Below, piece after piece: positions 44,683 to 64,000 of a DNA stretch of 64,000 bases (position 1 is the stretch's first letter; the number at the start of each line of letters is the position of its first letter). Position numbers and translations under genes: made by a program. The notes beneath the pieces are model-generated. The model ran no database searches and was not told where the DNA came from. It was given only the letters and a program-made list of their open reading frames with translations. This stretch comes from Cliona cf. orientalis (lineage: Eukaryota; Porifera; Demospongiae; Clionaida; Clionaidae). The stretch spans positions 186,001-250,000 of the forward strand of contig OZ005701.1 in the NCBI GenBank assembly GCA_963930775.1, read 5' to 3'.

Positions 44683-45130
44683 GCTTAAGCTTCGACTTTT
44701 TCTCTTGAATTGAACAGAGCTGATGATCAAGGCTACAGATCACTTGCTGTGATGATGTTTAGTGCGCATGCGTACTCATGGATCAGCCCCACCCTGCATA
44801 CCATACAAGCGCAGCGCCGCACTGAAGTGAGCCCCACCCTTTTTGGAAGTATTCCCGTGATCCCTATTGGTTCGCGAATCCAGCTAGGTTACGCCCCCCT
44901 TGCCATCGAATTGGTACTAATTTTCGTCTCCCAGTATCAAGCGTAATCGACGTCTCTGTGAAATTCTCTCTCGTTTTCGCGTTGGATCAACCATATCCTT
45001 TTATTATTTCACGACTGATTTGCAGTCAACTCGACTAGAAAAGGTACTACCGTACTCAGGCGCGTGTGATAAACATCCGCCATTTTGTTGCTTCTTGTAC
45101 ACTAGTGCAGGTCCCATTACCAGTGCTCCG
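44683..45130. promoter_or_regulatory. Divergent promoter region upstream of 2A gene copy 1
   Basis: Contains the block shared by all three 2A gene copies: GCGCAGCGCCGC then GAGCCCCACCCTTTTT (here with TGAGCC), TTTTCGTCTCCCA.TATCAAG and TCGTTTTC.CGTTGGATCAA, at about 44812-45000. The same order occurs at about 52532-52700 and 62949-63130. Such conservation outside the reading frame suggests promoter and 5' UTR function. Confidence 0.55.
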
Positions 45131-48100
45131 ATGATGGATGGAGTTGATCTCGACGTTTCCCAGGCTCGCGCCGATCTTCTCCCTGACAAGTATGATCGTC
45201 GCCGGATCAGCGGGGCCCTTACAATTAGGAGGTTGTCCAGCCGTCACTACAAGAGGCAGATGAGTGAGGGGGACGTGTGTAGTGTATGGGTGCTACTGCT
45301 CCTTCTCGTCTGCTCCCTACATCACGTGATTCACTCCAAGCAATGGCGGTCGTTCAAGAGAAGGCATGCCGTGCTGATCTGGTTTGTCTCTTTGCCGGTG
45401 GTTTTTTGTTGGAAAGTTGGGAAGAAGCTTTGGAAGGTGTTGGGGCTGTCGGATGTGCTCTATTATTGCTTGGTCTCTTTGCCGATGGCTTTGTGTGGGA
45501 AAGCTGCTCAGATTTGCCAGGAACTTTGGAATGAGTTTGTGGAGTCGGATGCGGTGTGTGATGGAGTGGCGATGTTAGGACTGTACTGGGAACTCATTCT
45601 TGACCTGTGGCTGTTTCTAGAGAGATACTGGCCGACTACCGAGATTCATATAACGTACATGCTGTGTATCATAGAGCCGGACAATGCTAGACCAAGGAGA
45701 GGGAGGGGGAGGGAGAGGTCAAAGGCCACCAAGGAGCCTATCGTTTGTGTCGTGTGTGAAGTGGTCCTGTGCTATGGGACGGGGTGGGCGTGGTTTAGGT
45801 CACTCCTGATTGGACCGTCCCATTTTGTCATACGTCGACTGCTGATCATGTCTGGAGACGTGGAACTCAACCCTGGACCTCTCACTGGTAAGGAGCTGTG
45901 TCTGTGTCTGCAGCATGGATAATAATATTTGTGATCAACTCCATCTTTTTGTAGATCATAAGACGGTTGAAGAAATACTTGAAACTATTGACGACACTGT
46001 CTTAGGTATACCCCTGATTAATATCATATTATAGCGGGAAATTTTTGAGGGATCCAATTTTCATGGATAATTGACCAACTGCGAAATTAAATAGTAAAAC
46101 TCGCCTATCTGTGAAAATTCCACCCTTCAAAAATTCCCCTCTGTACGGTAATACATGTAATTTCATTGCTACGACTATCACACTGCACAGGAGTGGATGA
46201 CTGGAATATTGTGGTGATAGAGTGCAAGTCACTGGCTGCCAAGTGGGAGCAGTTGAGCATCTACCTCGGACTCTCCTTTGAAGTGACTGAGAACATCAAG
46301 GGCTCTGGTGACAACTACCACTACTGGAGTGAAGCCCTCAAGCACTGGATCAAACGGAATTACAACACCAAGAAGTACGAGTTACCATCTTGGAGGAGCC
46401 TCCTCAAAGCAGTGGCTAAGGAAGACAAGCTGATGTTCTACAATTTAGCAGCGCAACACAAAGGTATGCATTCTCTCTGCTGAATAATATCATATAGTAA
46501 GAAATTTTTGAGGGAGAAAATTTTCGCAGATTGGTAGAAGGGAGCATTTTGTGGAAAAAATTTTTGTGGAATGGTAAACTGATTGCATAATGGGTGGGGC
46601 ATGCCTAAAGTTTCATGGAGAAACTTTTGCAAGTGGTTGTAAAATTACGAAATTCGTGAAAACTTTCTCCCTCAAAAGTTTCCCACTATATGGTACGCTA
46701 CCAATGTATTTACAGTTTACTATTATTTATTTCAGTAAAATCTGATGGTGCTGAACAAATAGAGGCTGGAACTACTGAAAGTAGTTTACACGAGTCTAAA
46801 GGTGAGCTGGTAGTTCATCGTTATTGTATATTATTGATTTAAGATTGTGTCTTATTTCATAGGCGCTGAGGGACTCGGTTCTCCAGATACCACTAAATCA
46901 TGCAGAACACCCTCAGAGTCTCTTACAACTTCTCCACGGAGCCATATTCACCCAGCAAGAAGAGGAAGCAGCAGATCTAGGTCACTGGGGAGGGTCTTTA
47001 AACTATTATCCAAGGCAAGGAGAAAGTCCAAGAGCACAAAAGAAGTCAAAGGTGAACATTGCTAAGTTGTCATCACTGCGGTTTGTTTCTAAGGTCATGT
47101 TAACATGTATGCAGGTGCTGAGGGAGGTACTCCAGACACAGCTGAACTAGGCTGTGCTCCTTCTCCCCCCACTCCTCCCTCTATCAGTTCGAATCCTGAA
47201 GAGAAACAGCGCCATTTCTTGCTCTCAGGTGCTGAGGGAGGTACTCCAGACACAGCTGAACTAGGCAGAGCTCCCTCTTCCCCCATCTCTCCCTCAAGCT
47301 CTGACTATTTGACTCCTGCAGTGAAAGAGAAGCTGTATGAGAAAGTCAGCCCTAAGTCAGAGGAAATGACTTACAAATTTCAAAAGCTCTACACAGCTAC
47401 CAGAAGATCTCTCCGGGATGAAAAGGTGACTGTCGCAGAACTGGTTCGTCATTTGGAGTGCTTGGGAACAATTAAACCCATTTACAAGGATGCAGGTCAA
47501 AGTCCATTGCGACACCAACTACCAGGACTAGCAAACATACAACATGTGGATGATGTCATGTCTGTTGTCAAGGACTACTGCTCATTCTTTAATTACCACA
47601 TCGTGGCTCATATAATTGAAGAGTTCGGGACCCCAAAAGACAAAGATAACTTGGCAGCTTATAGGAAGGACTTTGAAGATTACGCTCAGTGCTGTGTCGT
47701 TGAGGGATTGATGAAAGTTGGTGAAATGAGCGAAGAAGGCTTTTCAAATATCTTTGTGACACTGGACGATTCATTTGACGATTGCACTTTAAGGTACCTG
47801 AATGTCTTCATCGCTGACGTAAGAAAGGTTCTCAACATATCATCAGATGTCGAACTCAGACTGTGCTACATCAACCTTGGCAGTATAAAGCTGACCTTTC
47901 AACTCCCCCTCTCTCTCCGTCAAGACATCTTTCCTCTCTCTCCTGAGCAAGAAGCATCACTAGCTGCTCTAGGTGTTGTGGAGCTCTCCTGTGGGGACTA
48001 CCAGTTCACTAGACAACAGAATAAGGTAAGCTATGGCTAATGACATCATTGGATGACTGGTTGACCTTTGTCCTGTGTCTGTCCCGGCCGGCTGTCTGGC

Positions 48101-49542
48101 CAGCAGGAGGTAGAGGATCCCTGTGCTTCTGATGATGAGGGATACACAGGCTATGCTGACAGTGAGCCAACAATAGGCTAGTCCACTACAACCCTCATGT
48201 TGGTGTTTCATTTCCCCCAGGTGTCACTGAGTTGGCGTCCATGGCCACTGAACTGACTTTGCTGGACAAACCCTCTGTCATCATCACTGACTCTGGACTG
48301 GGGAGGAGTAGACACACTGGCACAGTGGCCACTGAGGTGGGCCACACTCAACTCTTATAACAACATCATAATAATAATTATGCATGATTATGGTACTTAT
48401 TTGAAGTGGGGAAATTCCGTTAGTACGCTTAATTTTCTTCTCTTGTTATCAACAACCTTTTATCCCTCTACCAACTGATCTCACTGACTGCTATTCCTTC
48501 CCTTTGTGTACATGTATTCCCACTCTAGGATACACTGCACAGGCCAGATGTAGAGTTTCCAGACATGGGAATGGGACATGACTCCAGCAGTGCACATGAA
48601 CTACGTCTAGCATCACAAAAAGGAGACTTGAAAGCTGTCAAATATCTGACTGAGGAGAAACGATTAAACCCACTACAGGAAAATAAAGATGGACTAAATG
48701 CTATTCACTACACTGCTTGGGGAGGACAGCTAGCTGTTCTCAAATATTTTATCGAAGATCAGGGACATAATCCAGCAAGTGCAGGTTCTACTGGAAGGCT
48801 AGCTGGATGGACACCGCTTCATGTGGCAGCACGATTCAACTATCTTGAACTAGTACGGTATCTGGTTGCCGAGCAACAGGTGGACCCAATGTGTCAGGCT
48901 GAAGATGGTGATACTCCACTACATAAAGCTTGCCTTGATGATAACAACATGGATGTAGTCGTCTACCTAGTGAATGCCATGAGTCAGCACCTCCCACTCA
49001 AGGATGTAGTTAGCTGCCGAGGTAAAGATGGACATGCTCCACTACACAGTGCTGCTTTGTATGGACAGTTGAAAATCATCAAATACTTGATCAACAAATT
49101 AAACTGTGACCCCAGTATCGTGATAACTGGTGAGCATCACGGGAGACCTACTAAATGTGGTGGTAGAACTGCCCTTCATCATGCTGCTCAAAATGGACAC
49201 CTACATGTGGTGAAATTCTTAATCGAGGATCAGCACTGTGATCCATCACACTGCAGCTATAAGAAAACAACTCCACTGCACCTAGCTGCTCAAAAGGGAC
49301 ACTTAGCTGTGGTGCAGTATCTCACCTTGGAGCAGCACTGTGACCCACTGTGTATGGACAATATTGATACTCCTCTTCACGCTGCTGCCTTAGATGGCCG
49401 CCTTGAAGTGGTCAGATTCATGATAGAAACACTCCACTGTCCTCCTGACGTTAGAGGATGGCGCAACAGGACACCACTTGAACAAGCACGTAGCCGAGGT
49501 CGCCACCATGTCGTCAAATATTTAGAGTCAATTATGTCCTAA
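45131..49542 (+). CDS. 2A-split membrane protein / death-domain / ankyrin protein, copy 1
   Basis: Nine exons join in phase: 45131-45887, 45955-46005, 46191-46463, 46736-46801, 46863-47051, 47115-48025, 48107-48161, 48221-48336, 48529-49542 (1,143 codons). Exon 1 encodes a basic N-terminus and about four hydrophobic stretches (residues 49-67, 79-95, 105-123, 145-165), then FVIRRLLIMSGDVELNPGP. Ribosome skipping between G249 and P250 would release the membrane part from an 894-residue protein. That protein has a death domain (about 270-360: WEQLSIYLGLSFEVTENIKG, HYWSEALKHWIK, SWRSLLKAVA), a linker with repeated GAEGxxPDT starts, a conserved helical module (about 490-749), and nine ankyrin repeats (about 810-1143, such as WTPLHVAARF and DTPLHAAALDG). 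I infer a role in death-fold signalling, perhaps immune. The MMDG start is chosen because it is conserved in all three copies. Confidence 0.82.
45857..45880 (+). other. 2A-like ribosome-skipping motif DVELNPGP, copy 1
   Basis: In frame at the end of exon 1, ten bases before the splice donor region. It fits the D(V/I)ExNPGP consensus and is preceded by an amphipathic helix-like RRLLIMSG, as in functional 2A peptides. The peptide bond between Gly (GGA, to 45877) and Pro (CCT, from 45878) would not form. Confidence 0.9.
47115..47290 (+). repeat. Duplicated GAEGGTPDTAELG coding segment
   Basis: The segment beginning GTGCTGAGGGAGGTACTCC occurs at 47115 and again at 47230, each after an AG acceptor-like sequence (ATGCAG and CTCTCAG). 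A more diverged relative starts exon 5 at 46863. Copy 2 has only one such segment, at 54436. This looks like exon-start duplication, so the second AG could be an alternative acceptor. Confidence 0.7.
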
Positions 49543-49588
49543 TTACGTACCCTGTCTTTGTTACTTTTTTCACCTTTCATCAATATGA

Positions 49589-49594
49589 AATAAA
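49589..49594 (+). terminator. AATAAA polyadenylation signal of 2A gene copy 1
   Basis: Canonical hexamer 47 bp after the stop codon. Confidence 0.5.
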
Positions 49595-50386
49595 TTTTTT
49601 GATTGGCTATGACATTAATATTATAATTATTATAAACTTTGTGTGCTTGGAAAGACTAAAACAATGTTTAAAAAACATCACTATAGTATAGTTACACAGC
49701 AAGTATTTCCTTGGCTTGTGGGTGTGGCTGCTGTTGGAAATGAGACTTGTATTTGCCAAATATGGAGTAGAGTACTCTCAGAGTGCTCTTCAGGTCCTTG
49801 TGGACAATGTCTGCAGGCAGAGAGAAATGGCAGCCAGTGTGATGTACGTACTGTATAGTTGAGGGAGAAGAATTTCATGGTTCGAAAGCAAAGCCACCCA
49901 TGAAAGTTTTCTCCACAATATTATATACATACATGATTTAGCTCACTTCCTATATTATTATACTGATCTGTGAAAGGTTTCTCCCCTGAATATTTTCCGC
50001 TATATTATTATGGGTCATTTCTCCCTACTTACCTTCAGGCTTGGCCCTCTCCTGAGGTATCCCAGCATCCTCCATCAGTTTGAAAGCCAGCTTCACATTG
50101 TCCAGCTACACAGGGGGTGAGAGAGCACCACATTATGATATTGTGTGTGTAGTTTCATCCATTGGATTACCTACTTCCTTTGCTAGCTTTCTTATCACAG
50201 AGTTGGTCATGAAGGGTACATGATATTGTACATGTATCTAGGGACCTAGGCGATGGTATTCAGGCCGTTTTATCCCCTCCCACCCTCCCTCCCACACACA
50301 CACATGCCCCCAACTTACATACCCTTTCCTCGAAGTTCTTGGGTGAGTAGTGCCAGAGGTAGTGAGGTATGTAGTATCCCTCAAAG

Positions 50387-52349
50387 AGGCGAATTTCAAA
50401 TTTGGGCGTACTTTATGGGGTCAAAGGTCAATATGTGCCAATTTTTAACCCTGTACCAACGACATTTTGAACTTGGCGAGTCTGAAGTGGAGGTACAGGT
50501 GGGGCCGGGGCCATAACTATCTCAATGGCACCGTAGATCAATAGATGAATCAATATCATCGCTGGATCACCGATGGCTAATTTTATCAAGGTTTGTTTAT
50601 CGTATCTACGTAGCTATATGGCTACTCTTCAAGTATTAAATAATTTAAATTAATTATATAACTCTCTTGGTACTAGGTCCATTTAATCATCATCGCCAGT
50701 GTCATCCATAATATGATATTATCCTTTAGCCTGTGATAACTGTATATAAGGTGAGTTTAAACTACTATTATTAATTTTTGATTGTACTATACGTAAATCT
50801 AGTCTCGCATGCCAGCCCCTCCTACTCAAGAAGTAGTCTCGCGCAGCCAGACTCTTTCTCAGGGAAAAGGGGGAGGGGGAAGGGGAGGGAGAGAGTCTGG
50901 TAAAGTGCTATACATCGAGTTGTCCCAGCGCCTCATACGAGGCGCGACCAATCAGATTGCATCTTTAGTTTTGCGGTGGCATATCCGATTGTGAACGGAG
51001 AATAAACACGCGTGCGCAATAGTATCTCGTCCATTCACAGTTGGATACGCCATCCACAAACTATGTAATGCCATAAAGATGCAATCTGATTGGTCGCGCC
51101 TCATACCAGGCGCTGAGACAACTCGATGTATGGCACTTTACCAGACTCTCTCCCTCCCCCTCCCCTCCCCCTTTTCCCTGCAGAGAGAGAGAGTCTGGCT
51201 GGGCGAGACTACTCAACAAGAGCGGCTGAAAGATTCTAATAACGTACCATCTGCCTGTCTACCAATGAAATGGCAGTATGTAGTCTCATGACCATCTATA
51301 ACACGAATTAGCTGTTTAGTTGTACGTGCAAAACTCTTTCTGAAATTAATTTTTGTGCATAGAGCTAGAACACTTCATTGTGTATGATCATTCGCTGCAA
51401 TGGCTTGTCCACACGCAAAACAGAAGCGGACATTTTACCACAGTCGAAGCGTAAAATAAAATGCACAACAAGGGTGTATATATGTACGCACAAAGCTGTT
51501 TGCAGTTTGTGACATCACGTTTGACGATGTCATGTGCATTCCATGGGGCAAGTGGATCGTACGTTATTTGCCAGACCCTTTCTCTCTTGAGTAGGAGGAC
51601 CTGCCCCGCGAGACTATACTGCTGCGTCCACCAGACCTGGTACCACACTTATGCATCAATACGTTGCTCAAATGAGCACCTGTCCATTCTAGAGTCCATC
51701 TCGTGGTGTGGAGGGTACAATGAGAATAATTAATTTTATACCATGTCGTTTGCTGTATTAACACCTGTATTGACTCAAAATGTGCTATACATTGCGTGCA
51801 AGTCAGTAATTTAGTTATGGTACAATACCACACCATATTATTTGTATGGCAATAATAATAATCATTGTGTTACCCATCTTAACATTATCCAGGAGATGAG
51901 AAGTTACCGTGACAGCAACAGAAAAAAGCTCATGAGTGTCATTCTGTCTGTGTTTACGTGTCAGTTCAAATTGTGATGTTAATTTATTTTCTATCTATAA
52001 TGAGAATTTGAGCAATAATTATCATGTAGCTATCTGCTAATGGAGATTTGATAATAATTATATGACCATCCCAAGAGTACCTGAGCTGTTCAGTAGATGC
52101 CAGGGACCTAGCTATCACTGGCTGTGACTCAAGAGTGGTAGCTACTACGAAATTGCTTAGTTTTCAAGTATTTTACTCAAACTGAAGTGAAATGCATTCT
52201 GCACTGTAGATGATTGACAGCAATTTGATAACTCTCCTCGCTGTGTCAAACTGGCTGTGCGAGTGCTGGCAGCCAAATTCAAAATCGAGTTAAAGCGGGC
52301 AACAATGACCTTTGACCCCATAAAGTACGCCCAAATTTGAAATTCGCCT
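50387..52349. mobile_element. Non-autonomous 1.96 kb TIR element inserted in the parvin exon
   Basis: The terminal inverted repeats (left 50387-50431, right 52305-52349, both beginning AGGCGAATTTCAAATTTGGG when read inward) match over about 45 bp and weakly beyond. The flanks CAAAG (50382-50386) and CAAGG (52350-52354) look like a 5-bp target duplication with one substitution. Removing the element and one copy restores the expected GLLEGY junction. No transposase open frame is present. It carries a nested foldback. Confidence 0.78.
50801..51615. repeat. Nested foldback inside the TIR element
   Basis: Two levels of inversion. An inner foldback spans 50832-51213, with arms of about 180 bp (AGTAGTCTCGC... 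against ...GCGAGACTACT) containing the purine/pyrimidine tract of GGGAAAAGGGGGAGG type and ATCAGATTGCATCTTTA. Outer arms at about 50801-50831 and 51586-51615 (AGTCTCGC...CTCCTACTCAAG) pair with each other. Confidence 0.7.
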
Positions 52350-52529
52350 CAAGGAGACCCATCATCAGGGCCCCATGTTGATTCCAGACTGAAACTCCAG
52401 GTCATTGCTACAGAACTGGCACAGGGACTGTGACATGGGGAATGGGAATAAAACACATTTTCCAAAGGGAGGTCTACTGGTTCAGAGTGCTAGCACTTAT
52501 AAATTGATCGATCCCGTACCTTATTATCG

Positions 52530-52839
52530 GCGCAGCGCCGCGCTGAAACGAGCCCCACCCTTTTTTGTAGTATGCAAACTCCGTAATCTCACTAATTCCC
52601 AGCGATACTGTGCAACAAATTGGTGTAAATTTTCGTCTCCCAATATCAAGCGTAATCGACGTCTCAGTGAAACTCTCTTTCGTTTTCCCGTTGGATCAAC
52701 CATATCCTTTTATTATTTCACGACTGATCTGCAGTCAACTCGACTAGAAAAGGTACTACCGTACTCAGGCGCGTGTGATAAACATCCGCCATTTTGTTGC
52801 TTGTTGTACACTAGTGCAGGTCCCATCACCAGTGCTCCG
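52530..52839 (+). promoter_or_regulatory. Conserved upstream block of 2A gene copy 2
   Basis: Carries the same ordered blocks as copies 1 and 3, starting with GGCGCAGCGCCGC. Just upstream is CACTTATAAATTGA at about 52495, also present at copy 3 as CACTTATAAGTTGA (about 62912), a possible TATA element. The frame is open here but conservation of the reading frame across copies begins only at MMDG. Confidence 0.5.
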
Positions 52840-55800
52840 ATGATGGATGGAGTTGATCTCGACGTTTCCCAGGCTCGCGCCGATCTTCTCCCTGACAAGT
52901 ATGATCGTCGCCGGATCAGCGGGGTCCTTGCAATTAGGAGGTTGTCCAGCCGTCACTACAAGAGGCAGATGAGTGAGGGGGACGTGTGTAGTGTATGGGT
53001 GCTACTCCTCCTTCTCGTCTGCTCCCTGCATCACGTGATTTACTCCAAGCAATGGCAGTCGTTCAAGAGAAGGCATGCTGTGCTGATCTGGTTCGTCTCT
53101 TTGCCGGTGGTTTTGTGTTGGAAAGTCGAGAAGAAGCTTTGGAAGGTGTTGGGGCTGTCGGATGTGCTCTATTATTGCTTCGTCTCTTTTCCGATGGCTT
53201 TGTGTGGGAAAGCTGCTCTGATTTACCAGGAACTTTGGAATGAGTTTGTGGAGTCGGATGCGGTGTGTGACGGAGTGGCGATGTTGGGACTGTACTGGAA
53301 ACTCATTCTTGACCTGTGGCTGTTTCTAGAGAGATACTGGCCGACTACCGAGATTCATATAACGTACATGCTGTGTATCATAGAGCCGGACAATGCTAGA
53401 CCAAGGAGAAGGAGGGGGAGGTCAAAGGTCACCAAGGAACCTGTCGTTTGTGAAGTGGTCCTGTGCTATGGGACGGGGTGGGCGTGGTTTAGGTCACTCC
53501 TGATTGGACCGTCCCATTTTGTCATACGTCGACTGCTGATCATGTCTGGAGACGTGGAACTCAACCCTGGACCTCTCACTGGTAAGGAGCTGTGTCTGTG
53601 TATGCAGCATGGATAATAATATTCATGATCAACTCCTTTTTTTTTGTAGATCACAAGACGGTTGAAGAAATACTTGAAACTATTGATGACACTGTCTTAG
53701 GTATGTCCCTGATTAATATATACCAAATAGCGAAAAATTTTCCGAGGAGTCCAATTTTCATGGATAATCAATGAACTGCGAATTTTAATTGTACAGCATA
53801 ATATAATGGATATAATCGTACTTGTCTCCATATATTATACCCATGGAATAGTAGAGATCGCATATCTGCGAAAATAAAATTCCTCCCTGTAGCTATGGTA
53901 ATAATTTTCTGCTACAACTTCACATGAGTATCACACTGCACAGGAGTGGATGACTGGAATATTGTGGTGATAGAGTGCAAGTCACTGGCTGCCAAGTGGG
54001 AGCAGTTGAGCATCTACCTCGGACTCTCCTTTGAAGTGACTGACAACATCAAGGGCTCTGGTGACAACTACCACTGCTGGAGTGAAGCCCTCAAGCACTG
54101 GATCAAACAAAACTATAACACAAAGAAGTTTGGTGAGCCATCTTGGAGGAGCCTACTAGCTGCTGTCGCTAAGGTAGACAAACTTCAATTCAAAGATCTG
54201 GCTTCTGAACACTTGGTTCAAGGTAGTTAAGCAACTTTCTAATTGTTATATTTTCTGCCGCTACTGGTATAATATAGTTGTTATATTTGATATCATATAT
54301 TCGTGCAGAATCCTCTGAAGAACACCATCCTGAGCAAATGGAGGTCAGTGCTACTCCAGTCAGAGACACACATTCAAAAGGTGAGCATTATATTAAATTT
54401 TATTGTGATTAATTTGATACTAACTCATGTTTCAGGTGCTGAGGGAGGTACTCCAGACACAGCTGAACTAGGCAGAGCTCCCTCCTCCCCCATCTCTCCC
54501 TTGAGCTCTGACTATTTGAGTCCCGCAGTGAAAGAAAAGCTCTATGGGAAAGTCAGCCCTAAGTCAGAGGAAATGACTTACAAATTTCAAAAGCTGTACA
54601 CGGCTACAAGAAGATCTCTCCGGGATGAAAAGGTGACTGTCGCAGAACTGGTTCGTCATTTGGAGTGCTTGGGATCAATTAAACCAATTTACAAGGACGC
54701 AGGTCAAAGTCCATTGCGACGCCAGCTGCCAGCACTAGCAAATATACAACATGTGGATGATGTCATGTCTGTTGTCAAGGACTACTGTTCATTCTTTAAT
54801 TACCACATCGTGGCTCATATAATTGAAGAGTTCGGCACCCCAAAAGACAAAGATAACTTGGCAGCTTATAAGAAGGACTTTGAAGAGTACGCTCAGTGCT
54901 GTGTTGTTGGGGGATCGATGAAAGTTAACGAAATGAGCGAAGAAGGCTTTTCAAATATGTTTGTGACGCTGGACGATTCATTCGACAATTGCACTGTGAG
55001 GTACCTGAATGTATTTGTTGCTGACATACGAAAAGCTCTCAACATATCATCAGATGTCGATCTCAGACTGTGCCATATTATGTGTGGCAGCATAAAGCTG
55101 ACCTTTCAACTCCCCCTCTCTCTCCGTCAAGACATCTTTCCTCTCTCTCCTGAACAAGAAGCATCACTAGCTGCTCTAGGTGTTGTGGAACTCTCCTGTG
55201 GGGACTACCAGTTCACTAGACAACAGAATAAGGTAAGCCATGGCTAATGACATCATTGGATGACTGGTTGACCTTTGTCCTGTGTCTGTCCCGGCCGGCT
55301 GTCTGGCCAGCAGGAGGTAGAGGATCCCTGTGCTTCTGATGATGAGGGATACACAGACTATGCTGACAGTGAGCTAACAATAGGCTAGTCCACTACAACC
55401 CTCATGTTGGTGTTTCATTTCCCCCAGGTGTCACTGAGTTGGCGTCCATGGCCACTGGACTGACTTTGCAGGACAAACCCTCTGTCATCATCACTGACTC
55501 TGGACTGGGGAGGAGTAGACACACTGGCACAGTGGCCACTGAGGTGGGCCACACTCAACTCATGCACTATGTTAGGCTGTGCTTCAGTCACGAAGAACAC
55601 ATTTTGCTTATTAAATTTGATTGCCTCAGTATAATATACTTGTATGGTACTTCATTTTAGTCAATTTTCTTCTCATTAAGCTTTGTTATCAACAACCTTC
55701 TATCCCTCTACCAACTGATCTCACTGACTGCTATTCCTTCCCTTTGTGTACATGTATTCCCACTCTAGGATACACTGCACAGGCCAGATGTAGAGTTTCC

Positions 55801-56794
55801 AGACATGGGAATGGGACATGACTCCAGCAGTGCACATGAACTACGTCGAGCATCCAAAAAAGGAGACTTGAAAGCTGTCAAATATCTGACTGAGGAGAAA
55901 CGATTAAACCCACTACAGGAAGATAAAGATGGAAGGAATGCCATTTTCTGTTCAGCTTGGGGGGGACAGCTAGCTGTGCTGAAATATTTTATCGAAGACC
56001 AAGGACATAATCCAGCAAGTGCATGTTCTACTGGAAGGCTAGTTGGATGGACACCACTTCATGTGGCAGCACAATACAACCATCTTGAACTAGTGCGGTA
56101 TCTGGTTGCCGAGCAACACGTGGACCCAATGTGTCAGACTGAAGGTGGCGATACTCCGCTACATAAAGCTTGCTATGATGATAACAACATGGATGTAGTT
56201 GTCTACCTAGTGAATGCCATGAGTCAGCACCTCCCACTCAAGGATGTAGTTAGTTGCCGAGGTACAGATGGAGTAACTCCACTACACAGTGCTGCTTTGT
56301 TTGGACAGTTGAAAATTATCAAATACTTGATCACCGAGTTGAACTGTGACCCCAGTATAGTGACGACTGGTGAGCATCATGGGAAACCTACTAAATGTGG
56401 TGGTAGAATTGCCCTTCATAATGCTGCTGTAAGGGGACATCTGCATGTGGTGAAATTCTTAGTTGAGGATCAGCACTGTGATCCATCACGCTGCGACTAT
56501 GAGAAAGTAACTCCACTGCACAAGGCTGCTGGACTTGGACACTTAGCTGTGGTGCAGTATCTCACCTTGGAGCAGCACTGTGACCCACTGTGTACTAACA
56601 TTTGGAACGACACTCCTCTTCATAATGCTGCCTTAGATGGCCGCCTTGAAGTGGTCAGATTCATGATAGAAACACTCCACTGTCCTCCTGACATTAGAGG
56701 ACAGCTCAACATGACACCACTTGAACAAGCACGTTACGAAGGTCACCACCATGTCGTCAAATATTTAGAGTCACTTCGTCCACAACTCAAGTGA
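52840..56794 (+). CDS. 2A-split membrane protein / death-domain / ankyrin protein, copy 2
   Basis: Eight exons join in phase: 52840-53581, 53650-53700, 53944-54222, 54309-54380, 54436-55232, 55314-55368, 55428-55543, 55769-56794 (1,045 residues before skipping). Products after 2A skipping would be 244 and 801 residues. Domain order equals copy 1: membrane module with hydrophobic stretches, SGDVELNPGP, death domain (VDDWNIVVIECKSLAAKWEQ, CWSEALKHWIK, SWRSLLAAVA), conserved module (YKFQKLYTATRRSLRDEKV to PLSLRQDIFPLSPEQEASL), then nine ankyrin repeats. It lacks the 189-bp exon at 46863-47051 of copy 1 and has a different short exon 4 (HHPEQMEVSATP). The two copies are very similar overall, including introns near exon 6/7, so the duplication is recent. 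All exon phases are kept, suggesting function. Confidence 0.82.
53551..53574 (+). other. 2A-like ribosome-skipping motif DVELNPGP, copy 2
   Basis: Nucleotide-identical to the motif of copy 1 and in the same place at the end of exon 1. Gly ends at 53571 and Pro starts at 53572. Confidence 0.9.
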
Positions 56795-58045: not shown

Positions 58046-61000
58046 TCAAGTCCAGGTAGGTTCAAATCTCTCAACAGGAACACGGTTACGCTTTGGATAG
58101 GATTTCTCACGAGTAGGATTTACTCTCACTGCATCTGGGTTAGTTGGAATAGGATCAGGTGATGCAGGCTCTGAATTCGTGTTCTCAGTTGGCATAGTCT
58201 CAGAAGCAGGACTAGCAGTAGAAGATTCTGTATTAGCAGATGTAGTTACTGGTGAAGATGGTGGAATGACAATATCTGGAATATCAGGCTCACGATGAGA
58301 GTCCTGAGGTACTTCCACTGAACGTTTGCGAACTTGATCTTGATGACAACGTCTAGTTTTACCATTTGCAAGTTTCACTCTGTAGGAAACAGGACCAGTT
58401 TTCTGTTCAACAGTACCTGGCAACCATTTGTCTCCATGATGGTAATTTCTCACGAAAACATCATCTCCAGCTTCAAAGTTTCTCTCTCTGGATCTAAGAT
58501 CATGTTTCTCTTTCTGTTTCATCTGATTCCTCTCTACTCTCTCAGCAGTATCGGGTTTCAAGAGATCCAGTCGTGATCTAGGACGGTGTCCCAACAATAG
58601 TTCACTCGGAGAGATTCCAGTAGTGGATTGCGGAGTGAGGCGGTAGGTTAGGAGAACTTGAGCAAGGCGAGTACGCATAGTACCATGAGTGATCTTCCTC
58701 AATCCTTTCTTAACTGTCTGTACAGCGCACTCAGCAAGCCCATTGGAGGCAGGATGATAGGGTGCTGAGGTTAGATGCTTGATGCCATTACTTTTGAAAA
58801 ATGCTTCGATTTCTGCGCTGACAAAACACGTACCATTATCAGTAACAACTGTCTCAGGAATTCCAAATTGTGCGAATATCGTTCTCAGTTCCTCAATCAC
58901 GGCAGTAGAAGTAGCATTCGGAGTGCAAATAGCCTCAATCCATTTGGAATGAGCATCGACCATAACAAGTATCATCTTTCCTTGTACCGGTCCGGCGTAA
59001 TCGAGGTGTAAGCGTGCCCACGGCCTAGTAGGCCAACTCCACGGGTGCAATGGGGCAACTGACGGTGTTGATTGGTGCAATTGACAAGCAGAACATTGTT
59101 GGACAGTTCGTTCGATATCCTTCGTGATACCAGGCCACCATACATACATCCTAGAGAGTCCCTTCATTCGTGTGACACCAGGATGACCTTCGTGAAGCTC
59201 AGTGAGTACAGCATCTCGGCAGGCATGAGGAACAATGACCCTAGTACCCCACAGTAGACAACCTTCATAAATTGAGAGCTCTGCTTTCTTCTCGAAAAAT
59301 GGGGCAAGTTTGTCCGGATCTGGACATACACTAGGCCATCCCTGCTGCACAAACTGAACAATTGGAGCAAGCTGTGGATCCTTTCGAGTGCACTCTTTGA
59401 TTTGGTGAGCAGTAACAGGAGAATTATCAAGGTGATCCACTAGCAATACAATCTCCGGTGGTGGCTGCTTAACAGACGGTTGAACGGGTAAGGGAAGGCG
59501 ACTCAACGCATCGGCATTTGCGTGAGCGGTCGTATTTCGGAATTTCAACTTGTATTCGAACATCGATAGGTACAGTGACCAACGTCGGATTCTCGCTGAT
59601 GCTTGCGGTGAAGTAGGCTTCTGGCTATCAAGGAGGCCCAGCAGCGGCTTGTGGTCGGTGATTAGGGTGAATGAATGACCAAACAAGTAGGAGTAAAACC
59701 GCTTGATTCCAAACACTAGTGAAAGGCCCTCCTTCTCGAGCTGTGAATAATTTCGCTCGGCGGAATTCAAGGTACGGGAGGCGTACCCTATCGGCTTCTC
59801 TGAACCGTCTGGCATTCGGTGAGCCAGAACTGCGCCAATGCCGTAAGCAGACGCATCGCAGGCCAGAAGTAACGGAAGTTTCGAGTCGTAATGAACGAGT
59901 AATTGCGAGGACGTGAGTAACTCCTTCGATTCGTTGAACGCTTTGTCTTGTGCGGATGTCCATTCCCACGGTTCTTTCTTGCTTAGAAGCTTGTAGAGCG
60001 GTGCTAGTCGAGTCGATAAGTTCGGCAAGAATTTCCCGTAATAAGTAAGCAATCCGAGGTAGGACTTCAACTCAGTAACATTATTGGGAGTAGGAGCTTG
60101 GCGGATAGCTTCAACTTTCTCAGGGAGCGGATGTAGACCCTCTGAGTCAATCACATGACCAAGGTAAGGTACGGACGGTACCATAAATTTGCATTTTTGT
60201 TTCTTTACCTTCAACTCAGCCTTGGCCAACCGTTTGAAAACTTCCTCCAAGCTCTTCAAGTGCTCAGCCTCGGTCTCGGAATGGATCAAAATATCATCGA
60301 TATACACGGTAACGCGCGGAATACCCTGCAACAACTGCTCCATGGCTTTCTGAAATATTCCAGGGGCAGAGGAGATACCGTATGGCAGGCGTGTGTAGCG
60401 GAAGAGGCCCTTGTGGGTGCTGATAACCACGTACTTGCTTGACTCCTCCTCCAGCTTGAGCTGCAGGTACGCCTGGCTCAGGTCTAGCTTGGTGAATAAC
60501 TTCCCTTGCTTAAGTGTGGCGAAGATATCCTCTGTCTTAGGTATGGGGTAACGGTTCAGCTTGGACACGGGGTTAATCGTCATTCGAAAATCTCCACAGA
60601 TACGCACACTCTTACGGTCACTCTTCATCACTGCAACGATAGGAGCTGCCCAGTCGGAGTAGTCAACTGGCTCTAGTGTTCCTTCAGCCACTAATCTGTC
60701 CAGCTCCTCCTCGACCTTCTCTCGTATCGCATAGGGAACTGTGCGGGCTTTGCAGAAGCGGGGTGTAGCACCTGGATCCATCTCAATCTTTGCCTCGTAA
60801 TCTTTGAAGGTTCCAAGGCGTTCCTGAAAAAGCTCATCATACTGGCTCAGTAAATTATGCAACTGGGGGCTCTGCATGTAGTGGATCTTATCCCAATTCA
60901 ATTTAGTAAGCCAATTTCTTCCCAGAAGGGTAGGCCCATCTCCCTTGACAACCACCAAAGGTAGTATAGCTGTCTGACCTTGGTAAACAACTTGTACATC

Positions 61001-61570
61001 TGTGCTACCCACCACTGTAATAGGCTCCTTTGAGTAGGTCTGCAACCTGATAGTGGATGTACTTAGGCTCCTCCCCGGCCACAACTTGTGGTACCTGTTC
61101 TCAGAGATTATGGAAACACAGGCACCTGTATCTATCTCCATGGAGATGGAGACCTTATCTACTTCAACTTGTACCTTTATGGGAGGTGTGCGGCCATCTC
61201 GTCTTTGTCCAATAGTCAGGATTGGCTGCATGGAGTCATCTGTGTCCGAATCGTACTCCTCGTCTAGCTGGCGAACAGGTTGTGAAGTAGTTCTCTTAGT
61301 CGACTTTCCTTGATGTGCAGGTTGGGGTTGAGATTTGCTCTTGCAGACTCTAGCTAGGTGTCCCTTCTTTTTGCATTTGTGACACACACTGTCTCGGAAT
61401 CTGCACACAGTAGCCAAATGGCCTGGCTTGCCACAGCGGTGACAAATCACTTGAGCTCCACCCTCTGCTGTGCTGGCTCTTTTCCCTGCTACCTTGTGCA
61501 CTGGCTCTGACTTGACATGTACCCCTGTGCTGCTTCCAGAGGTTGACTCAGCTTTGCCGGGCGATTGCAT
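58046..61570 (-). CDS. pol: Retrotransposon pol polyprotein (1,174 aa)
   Basis: One uninterrupted frame. In order: two CCHC zinc knuckles (CHRCGKPGHLATVC and CHKCKKKGHLARVC), an aspartic protease with DTGA, reverse transcriptase with LPYGISSAP and the catalytic YIDD, RNase H with CDASAYGIGAVL and TDHKPL, an integrase with an HHCC zinc domain (HEGHPGVTRM... CSAC), a D,D(35)E core (LDYAGP, VTDNGT), and a GPY/F-type C-terminal module (TGPVSYRVKL). This order (RT-RNH-INT) is that of Ty3/gypsy (Metaviridae). The zinc knuckles sit in this frame, which is -1 relative to gag, so a frameshift or reinitiation at the ATG is needed. No disabling mutation is visible. Confidence 0.93.
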   Translation of the reverse strand: MQSPGKAESTSGSSTGVHVKSEPVHKVAGKRASTAEGGAQVICHRCGKPGHLATVCRFRDSVCHKCKKKGHLARVCKSKSQPQPAHQGKSTKRTTSQPVRQLDEEYDSDTDDSMQPILTIGQRRDGRTPPIKVQVEVDKVSISMEIDTGACVSIISENRYHKLWPGRSLSTSTIRLQTYSKEPITVVGSTDVQVVYQGQTAILPLVVVKGDGPTLLGRNWLTKLNWDKIHYMQSPQLHNLLSQYDELFQERLGTFKDYEAKIEMDPGATPRFCKARTVPYAIREKVEEELDRLVAEGTLEPVDYSDWAAPIVAVMKSDRKSVRICGDFRMTINPVSKLNRYPIPKTEDIFATLKQGKLFTKLDLSQAYLQLKLEEESSKYVVISTHKGLFRYTRLPYGISSAPGIFQKAMEQLLQGIPRVTVYIDDILIHSETEAEHLKSLEEVFKRLAKAELKVKKQKCKFMVPSVPYLGHVIDSEGLHPLPEKVEAIRQAPTPNNVTELKSYLGLLTYYGKFLPNLSTRLAPLYKLLSKKEPWEWTSAQDKAFNESKELLTSSQLLVHYDSKLPLLLACDASAYGIGAVLAHRMPDGSEKPIGYASRTLNSAERNYSQLEKEGLSLVFGIKRFYSYLFGHSFTLITDHKPLLGLLDSQKPTSPQASARIRRWSLYLSMFEYKLKFRNTTAHANADALSRLPLPVQPSVKQPPPEIVLLVDHLDNSPVTAHQIKECTRKDPQLAPIVQFVQQGWPSVCPDPDKLAPFFEKKAELSIYEGCLLWGTRVIVPHACRDAVLTELHEGHPGVTRMKGLSRMYVWWPGITKDIERTVQQCSACQLHQSTPSVAPLHPWSWPTRPWARLHLDYAGPVQGKMILVMVDAHSKWIEAICTPNATSTAVIEELRTIFAQFGIPETVVTDNGTCFVSAEIEAFFKSNGIKHLTSAPYHPASNGLAECAVQTVKKGLRKITHGTMRTRLAQVLLTYRLTPQSTTGISPSELLLGHRPRSRLDLLKPDTAERVERNQMKQKEKHDLRSRERNFEAGDDVFVRNYHHGDKWLPGTVEQKTGPVSYRVKLANGKTRRCHQDQVRKRSVEVPQDSHREPDIPDIVIPPSSPVTTSANTESSTASPASETMPTENTNSEPASPDPIPTNPDAVRVNPTREKSYPKRNRVPVERFEPTWT

Positions 61571-61575
61571 CTCTT

Positions 61576-62088
61576 TCAGGTAGCCGTTTCGAATCCTTTC
61601 GCTATCGACACAGCTTTAGCGTAGGTGAGGTCAGTCTCCTGTAGTAGCTTCTTTTGAATCGGCTCGTCGTTTATTCCCCAGACGATTCGATCTCTGAGCA
61701 TTTTATTCAGAGTCTCGCCGTAGTTACAGTGCTGTGCAAGACGACGCAGCTCCGCTACGTAAGCGGCTACAGATTCTCCAGCCTGTCTCGACCTGGAGTT
61801 GAAGCGAAAACGCTGCATGACCTCGGAAGGTGTCGGACTGTAGTGCTCGGTAAGTTTTGCAACCAGCTCGTCGTACTTCTTTTCTTTTGGCTTCGCAGGA
61901 GCAAGGAGGCTTCTCAACAGTTTGTAGGGCGCCGGCCCGATGACCGAGAGGAAAGTAGCCCGTCGCTTGTCCGCTTTCGCGTCTCCAGTGAGATCGTTAG
62001 CCTCGAAAAATTGCTCTAGCCTCTCCACATACTGAGGCCATTCCTCCTGCTCGGGATCATACTGCTCTATCTTTCCCAGCAGTGCCAT
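61576..62088 (-). CDS. gag: Retrotransposon gag (capsid) protein, 170 aa
   Basis: Starts at MALLGKIEQYDPEQEEW just after the primer-binding region; an in-frame ATG inside the LTR (62157) would add 23 residues. It contains the Ty3-type capsid features YVERLEQFFEANDL, LRSLLAP, and the RFNSRSRQAGESVAAYVAEL with LRDRIVWGI segments. It stops 6 bases before the pol ATG. It lacks its own zinc knuckles, which are encoded at the start of the pol frame. Confidence 0.88.
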   Translation of the reverse strand: MALLGKIEQYDPEQEEWPQYVERLEQFFEANDLTGDAKADKRRATFLSVIGPAPYKLLRSLLAPAKPKEKKYDELVAKLTEHYSPTPSEVMQRFRFNSRSRQAGESVAAYVAELRRLAQHCNYGETLNKMLRDRIVWGINDEPIQKKLLQETDLTYAKAVSIAKGFETAT

Positions 62089-63270: not shown

Positions 63271-64000
63271 ATGATGGATGGAGTTGATCTCGACGTTTCC
63301 CAGGCTCGCGCGGATCTTCTCCCTGACAAGTATGATCGTCGCCGGATCAGCGGGGTCCTTGCAATTAGGAGGTTGTCCAGCCGTCACTACAAGAGGCAGA
63401 TGAGCGAGGGGGACGTGTGTAGTGTATGGGTGCTACTGCTCCTTCTCGTCTGCTCCCTGCATCACGTGATTCACTCCAAGCAATGGCGGTTGTTCAAGAG
63501 AAGGCATGCCGTGCTGATCTGGTTCGTCTCTTTGCCGGTGGTTTTGTGTTGGAAAGTCGGGAAGAAGCTTTGGAAGGTGTTGGGGCTGTCGGATGTGCTC
63601 TATCATTGCTTCATCTCTTTGCCGATGGCTTTGTGTGGGGAAGCTGCTCAGATTTGCCAGGAACTTTAGAATGGGTTTGTGGAGTCGGCTGCAGTGTGTG
63701 ACCAAGTGGCGATGTTAGGACTGTATTGGGAACTCATTCTTGACCTGTGGCTGTTTCTAGAGAGATACTGGCCGACTACCAAGATTCATATAACGTACAT
63801 GCTGTGTATCATAGAGCCGGACAATGCTATAGCTAGACCAAGGAGGGGGAGGGGGAGGTCAAAGGTCACCAAGGAGCCTGTCATTTGTATCGTGTGTGAA
63901 GTGATCCTGTGGTATGGGACGGGGTGGGCGTGGTTTAGGTCACTCCTGATTGGACCGTCCCATTTTGTCATACGTCGACTGCTGATCATGTCTGGAGACG
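63271..64000 (+). pseudogene. 2A gene copy 3, exon 1 with premature stop, cut by window end
   Basis: The same MMDGVDLDVSQARADLLPDK start and membrane module as copies 1 and 2. At 63667-63669 TAG replaces the TGG (Trp) of the other copies. The frame remains open after it, through ITYMLCIIEPDNA, WAWFRSLLIGPSHFVIRRLL and into SGD, where the window ends two codons into the 2A motif. The lesion is a single substitution, so this is either a very young pseudogene, an allele, or a copy where only the upstream product is truncated. Downstream exons are not visible. Confidence 0.7.

Follow-up and report, generated by a model that had tools for sequence, protein, structure and literature searches.

The stretch analysed here (the window) is 64,000 nucleotides of the sponge Cliona cf. 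orientalis, C13:186001-250000 (OZ005701.1), and it was set against the rest of the assembly (216.8 Mb in 149 contigs). Its forward strand carries two tandem genes (45131-49542 and 52840-56794), the first exon of each stopping a few bases past an in-frame SGDVELNPGP, the core of a 2A (StopGo) sequence; the part up to and including this core is called the leader below. The sequence-only reading of this DNA had placed the motif, with RRLLIM in front of it, at both exon 1 ends, and motif search and reading frames confirm this. The product sizes it had proposed were reproduced by gene models in which every predicted intron has a GT donor and an AG acceptor and no stop interrupts the frame: copy 1 (1143 amino acids, nine exons) is split at the 2A bond into 249 residues, counted up to NPG, and 894, and copy 2 (1045 amino acids, eight exons) into 244 and 801. 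The initial introns are phase 1 in both models (five in copy 1, four in copy 2), and the order after the 2A is the same in both: first a 51-base acidic exon, next the exon for the death domain, then linkers, the module that includes a TRADD-N-like domain, and finally the exon of ankyrin repeats (Table 1). The tandem array suspected earlier was borne out and extends beyond the window, with nine leaders of the window type in the 231-350 kb interval of C13. An open frame of 1189 amino acids on the reverse strand (58046-61615) separates copy 2 from the third leader and looks by eye like a Gypsy-type retrotransposon polyprotein.

Table 1. Predicted features of the 2A-leader genes in the window (positions are those of the window).
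Feature	Position	Strand	Evidence
Copy 1 exon 1: leader of 249 amino acids, five hydropathy peaks, 2A at end	45131..45887	+	pN/pS 0.40, hydropathy, frame
Copy 1 2A core SGDVELNPGP, predicted skip between Gly and Pro	45851..45880	+	motif search, alignment, pN/pS
Copy 1 exon 2: short acidic linker, phase 1-1	45955..46005	+	gene model; similar short exon seen by eye at three loci of other leader families
Copy 1 exon 3: death domain	46191..46463	+	family profile, gene model
Copy 1 exon 4: linker	46736..46801	+	gene model
Copy 1 exon 5: linker	46863..47051	+	gene model
Copy 1 exon 6: module with TRADD-N-like domain	47115..48025	+	Pfam, gene model
Copy 1 exon 7: linker	48107..48161	+	gene model
Copy 1 exon 8: linker	48221..48336	+	gene model
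Copy 1 exon 9: ankyrin repeats and stop	48529..49542	+	Ank_2 E 7e-54, gene model
Copy 2 exon 1: leader of 244 amino acids, 2A at end	52840..53581	+	gene model
Copy 2 2A core SGDVELNPGP	53545..53574	+	motif search
Copy 2 exon 2: short acidic linker	53650..53700	+	gene model
Copy 2 exon 3: death domain	53944..54222	+	family profile, gene model
Copy 2 exon 4: linker	54309..54380	+	gene model
Copy 2 exon 5: module with TRADD-N-like domain	54436..55232	+	Pfam, gene model
Copy 2 exon 6: linker	55314..55368	+	gene model
Copy 2 exon 7: linker	55428..55543	+	gene model
Copy 2 exon 8: ankyrin repeats and stop	55769..56794	+	Pfam, gene model
Third copy: leader exon cut by window end, one in-frame TAG, intact 2A straddling the end	63271..64000	+	

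The window codes for DVELNPGP exactly two times, both on the forward strand (45857-45879 and 53551-53573), where shuffled sequences predict 0.06 occurrences when two mismatches are allowed, and in both copies RRLLIMSG precedes the motif in frame. A chance origin of the motif was excluded by these shuffles and by the zero matches of reversed-pattern controls. The core satisfies the StopGo/2A consensus (D/G/C/N)(V/I)ExNPGP, as the sequence-only reading had it, and the open frame goes on downstream through the predicted splicing. The upstream hexapeptide, LLIMSG, was compared by eye and resembles the LLLLSG-like class (Gly at p11, Asp at p12) that Li et al. (2026, PMC12846837) describe; this class, made up of their motifs 2 and 6, is linked to Asp at p12 and to Ser at p15, and all four motifs assayed, motif 6 included, separated the products in reticulocyte lysate. 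LLLISG and LLLLSG are the commonest hexapeptides among the leaders of the nucleotide-binding, leucine-rich-repeat receptor (NLR) type.

Genome-wide, at least 105 codings of DVExNPGP (DV sites) and 47 of DIExNPGP (DI sites) were found (0 and 0 in the reversed-pattern controls), and a broader 2A pattern gave 160 matches with 1 in its control; all of these are lower bounds, with N-type cores undercounted. When 151 sites were placed (104 of the 105 DV and all 47 DI), 113 were followed on their own strand by a death-domain exon no more than 4 kb away (89 of 104 DV and 24 of 47 DI sites; 0.3% expected by chance), only one had such an exon upstream and none had one on the other strand. Death-domain positions were obtained with three queries taken from genes behind 2A sites (144 of 144 matches, the best 91 of 151 and the best 92 of 150), and three matches from the second query were added by hand; the assignment of one DI site depends on one of these three. 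At the 89 DV sites 2A and death domain are a median of 340 bases apart. Classified by neighbouring domains, among the TRADD-N and NACHT matches listed and with a 6 kb range for the death domain, the 104 DV sites comprise 48 with death domain and TRADD-N, 22 with death domain and NACHT, 21 with a death domain only, two with TRADD-N only, one with NACHT only and ten for which no neighbouring domain was found, these ten including a retrotransposon (L020). NACHT was confirmed by Pfam at both loci scanned, and 29 of the best 32 matches to an NLR-type death-domain query have a 2A within 4 kb when DI and N-type cores are counted. The layout proposed from the window, membrane leader, 2A, death domain, module and ankyrin repeats, was thus seen, but it does not stand alone as an oddity, since 2A leaders also precede NACHT genes.

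Three groups of sites were recorded in passing. On the reverse strand of C2 (1335799-1404922) five NIELNPGP variants each have a match to the TRADD-N-type module within 3.2 kb after them, and may be 2A leaders of another efficiency. At C10:760125/760495 and C10:773803/774007 two 2A cores share a strand at a spacing of 200-370 bases, each pair lying upstream of a single death-domain exon, a possible double 2A. Between 18 and 36 Mb of C1 there are 16 dispersed DIExNPGP sites (13 of them DIEVNPGP) at which no death-domain neighbour was found; these are perhaps a retrotransposon family.

The domains behind the 2A were identified mainly at the level of the family. Pfam Death matched 12 of 15 aligned members (E up to 1, best 4.3e-6), and the death-domain profile run against the PDB matched the death domains of RIPK1 (best E 2.5e-4) and FADD (best E 5e-4) among 29 matches with E up to 1. 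The death domain that had been read from the sequence is therefore upheld for the family, although the copy 1 exon searched alone against Pfam gave no match. The ankyrin repeats stand as described (Pfam E 7e-54 and 1.5e-50 in the two copies). What had been called a conserved module appears to be a TRADD-N module, a type on record from sponges; 17 of 18 members match the TRADD-like N-terminal domain (PF20694) with E of 0.1 or lower (best 5.4e-8), although copy 1 at 19.4 bits lies under the Pfam cut-off of 23.7. The window genes thus appear to fit the sponge class of death domain, TRADD-N and ankyrin proteins, with a 2A leader added.

The leader is coding and under purifying selection. Six C13 copies give a pairwise ratio of nonsynonymous to synonymous differences per site (pN/pS) of 0.40, and seven C18 copies one of 0.33, values which rule out a non-coding leader; the two ratios become 0.41 and 0.37 when the C1 and C3 copies are added, and the ratio over all 15 copies is 0.56. 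Over the ten SGDVELNPGP codons of these 15 copies there are 124 synonymous and 0 nonsynonymous pairwise differences (pN 0.000, pS 0.148), as against 167 synonymous and 381 nonsynonymous in the ten codons ahead (pN 0.162), counts that are of pairs and hence of non-independent events, with positions counted back without gaps and the 15 copies themselves chosen by the motif. In an alignment of 26 leaders (the window leader and 25 of 53 relatives, the core being present in all 26) nine of the last ten columns are invariant compared with 24 of the 240 elsewhere. All 36 genomic matches to the window leader that reach its end, a set not chosen through the motif alone, carry the exact core, although 12 of the 36 match mainly through that end.

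Among relatives in public protein sets D(V/I)ExNPGP is present in 51 of 53, in 118 of 120 listed of 181 found, and in 77 of 81 new identifiers (from 120 matches listed of 239 found), so that among the matches listed the core is kept in 246 of the 254 inspected; these counts overstate independence because the queries included the 2A and some of the proteins may come from the same species. Seven of the eight relatives without the core end or lose frame before the site, and one has Asn for Asp, which the expanded core of PMC12846837 permits. Five relatives (P0005-P0008 and P0010) are 74-77% identical over nearly the whole query and have no counterpart among 42 leader matches in the C. cf. orientalis genome; they probably derive from another species. 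In two others (P0015 and P0029) intron 1 is seemingly open, with sequence like exon 2 following the 2A in one frame.

This conservation bears on the possibility that the 2A is inactive in its host, the leader being simply the membrane anchor of a one-piece receptor and the motif being conserved for another reason. A membrane-spanning TRADD-N receptor family is known from an oyster (PMC8195603), and for the sponge Dysidea avara NLR architectures that include transmembrane segments are reported (PMC12909245); such an anchor would not be out of place. It would not account for constraint falling exactly on the residues that skipping needs (pN 0.000 over ten codons), nor for the core varying, in the relatives listed, only at x, at V/I and by a single D-to-N change, all of which lie within the functional consensus of PMC12846837. 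We regard an inactive 2A as improbable.

Leaders were compared at 45 distinct loci. They range from about 40 to 249 amino acids and fall into several families, the long ones being multi-span by hydropathy (Kyte-Doolittle, 19 residues, cut-off 1.6, read from the first Met), and 40 of the 45 have a hydropathy peak. At 37 of the 45 a GT[AG] donor in phase 1 lies 1, 4, 7, 10 or 13 bases past the Pro codon of the 2A, six short-leader loci have GTTGGT at the 10-base place instead (by eye), and no donor was found after the 2A in two of the 45, the retrotransposon L020 and L046. Three loci of other leader families (L004, L006 and L007) continue by eye into a similar short phase 1-1 exon, followed in L004 and L006 by a death-domain exon. 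Leader families A, B and C have a common N-terminal motif as well as the 2A end (18 invariant columns in eight sequences, nine of them outside the last ten), and the short leaders (about 40 residues) are similar to the final stretch of the window-type leader, 11 of 12 being 64-69% identical to it over 34-45 residues. We read the leader as a 5' exon unit that may have been joined onto different receptor genes.

The leader exon might instead be a fragment of a 2A-carrying non-long-terminal-repeat (non-LTR) retrotransposon lying outside the gene. Such elements do occur in this genome: L020 (C13:1374287) is a non-LTR element whose PHD, endonuclease and reverse transcriptase domains directly follow a DVEVNPGP, and the family of DIEVNPGP sites scattered over chromosome 1 may be another. 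The window-type leader, by contrast, lies upstream of a death-domain exon at all 36 loci matching it and was not found elsewhere in the genome, and it has phase-1 donors and purifying selection. A transposon fragment, very improbable as an account of these genes, was accordingly rejected for the window-type leader and accepted for L020; the 2A itself may nevertheless have come from a retroelement long ago.

The make-up of the leaders also bears on what skipping would be for. If skipping were essentially complete and served co-expression, the leader would be a separate membrane protein made one-to-one with the receptor, and a tethered pool would be irrelevant. Purifying selection on the leader, the invariant columns far upstream of the 2A in the long leader and the N-terminal motif common to the three families all favour such a role. 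Leaders of about 40 residues (e.g. L022-L024), on the other hand, barely exceed a hydrophobic helix and the 2A, as in the sea urchin, and an independent function is hard to see for them. Pure co-expression seems to us rather unlikely.

The interpretation that we favour, and hold to be probable, is that these leader-2A receptor genes yield by skipping a membrane leader and a free receptor, with a minority of the product staying fused and tethered. Cytosolic immune-type adaptor or receptor genes (death domain, TRADD-N, ankyrins) would begin with a shuffled 5' leader exon ending in an active 2A, where the ribosome would skip the Gly-Pro bond so that one mRNA gave two proteins, a membrane-inserted leader protein and a free receptor starting with Pro and continuing into its death domain. 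The unskipped minority would remain fused to the leader and hence tethered to the membrane, and the efficiency of each 2A would set the ratio of free to tethered receptor, in line with what was demonstrated for the 2A of a sea-urchin NLR. We prefer this because the 2A core is in frame and conserved, the leader is selected, the predicted splicing is consistent in phase and two receptor classes are involved. Separate leader and receptor plus a tethered unskipped fraction are proposed by analogy, and we infer the joining of exon 1 to exon 2 in the mRNA, the skipping, the entry of the leader into the membrane and a function of the tethered form. The sequence-only reading, which had advanced much the same scheme, appears on these data to be partly supported.

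Several observations weigh against this interpretation. Five of the 45 loci have no hydropathy peak at the cut-off, and the AlphaFold model of the leader is poor (predicted local distance difference test 54, predicted template modelling score 0.22), so that the membrane fold is argued from hydropathy only. The free x position of the core (p15) is Leu in the window, where LLLLSG-like motifs prefer Ser (PMC12846837), and the leader of the third copy has an in-frame stop (TAG). Of 144 matches to the window-type death domain, 88 lack a DV, DI or listed N-type 2A in the 4 kb before them, which means that the 2A system is not universal; together with a cluster on C10 (7.9-8.8 Mb), in which none of 27 window-type death-domain exons has an upstream DVExNPGP, this indicates that death domains and leaders are separable. 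Conversely, 38 of the 151 placed sites adjoin no detected death-domain exon, one of them being the retrotransposon. Finally, pN/pS before the ATG leaves the start codon of the leader unsettled. Position 45131 is merely the first in-frame ATG in copy 1, and pN/pS over the 60 codons upstream of the ATG is 0.70 (C13) and 0.89 (C18), while over the 25 codons adjoining it (45056-45130 in copy 1) it is 0.49 (C13) and 0.61 (C18, four copies) with few differences, so that selection does not fix the start. A claim that selection marks the start codon was dropped, the pre-ATG contrast being weaker once the diverged C1 copy is left out. The conserved 25 codons are also present before other leaders, and could reflect either an upstream start or a constrained 5' leader.

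A further possibility is that the 2A itself is the sensor, infection or stress that disturbs translation shifting the balance of tethered to free death-domain receptor, so that the genes would guard translation. Gly-Pro skipping depends on the condition of the ribosome and of its factors, which suggests such a role, and regulation of the 2A outcome by translational stress has been postulated for the sea-urchin case (PMC4981915), but we think this reading distinctly unlikely. Were it true, the pairing of 2A and death domain in sponges and sea urchins would be either a repeatedly selected or an ancestral immune design of animals.

To our knowledge, ribosome-skipping 2A sequences have been thought almost exclusively viral. 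In this one animal genome over 100 2A codings stand immediately before death-domain exons; selection maintains them, and they are spread across two receptor classes. If active, they would take cellular 2A far beyond a sea-urchin curiosity, provide naturally occurring 2A sequences that probably differ in efficiency, and offer a testable way for translation alone to split immune receptors between membrane and cytosol. What is provisionally new is the use of 2A leaders, long multi-span ones included, by two receptor classes in a sponge; a literature search turned up no sponge 2A gene, and the novelty is provisional because the search did not reach the survey of Rao et al. 2025 (Cell Rep 44:115822), which is said to cover 2A sequences of eukaryotes and viruses and could include genes of this kind.

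Among known systems, the APE-type non-LTR retrotransposons in which Odon et al. 2013 reportedly described 2A have the same motif as the window, and one such element (L020) is present in the Cliona genome; endonuclease, PHD and reverse transcriptase were not found in the seven exon pieces of the window genes scanned with Pfam, L020 serving as the positive case. With the LLLLSG-class StopGo/2A of RNA viruses (PMC12846837) the window sequences have in common the core octapeptide, Gly at p11 and an L-rich upstream hexapeptide, but they are cellular, close the first exon of multicopy genes of immune type and have Leu rather than Ser at p15. The order after the 2A is that of the sponge proteins of Kaur et al. 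(2021, PMC8195603), Death-like domain, TRADD-N and a variable C-terminus (in that study mostly ankyrins or SH3 with leucine-rich repeats, LRRs), a class described there as an NCOA6-clade expansion with 357 proteins in Amphimedon; '2A-like' has 0 occurrences in the main text of that paper, which under that name mentions no 2A leader. Neither '2A-like' nor 'ribosome skipping' occurs in the available text of a 2026 paper on sponge NLRs (PMC12909245), and the '2A-like' of another sponge paper (PMC5890393) is an unrelated protein name. The closest parallel is the sea urchin S. purpuratus, where, according to Roulston et al. (2016, PMC4981915), about 35% of the NLRs (85 of 241) have a 2A-like sequence, and where one such 2A gave about 80% recoding and a recoding-dead fusion entered the Golgi/exocytic pathway. 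Both systems have an N-terminal 2A joined to a hydrophobic segment before a death domain. The urchin leaders tabulated there are of 26 amino acids and sit on DEATH-NACHT-LRR proteins, whereas those of Cliona are of about 40-249 in several families and precede both death domain and TRADD-N genes (ankyrin-ended in the window) and death domain and NACHT genes; the urchin-type combination of NACHT and LRR was not seen in the window genes, which have TRADD-N and ankyrins, although NACHT is present at other Cliona loci. By analogy, the window genes would work like the 2A signal sequences of the urchin NLRs and yet are not NLRs.

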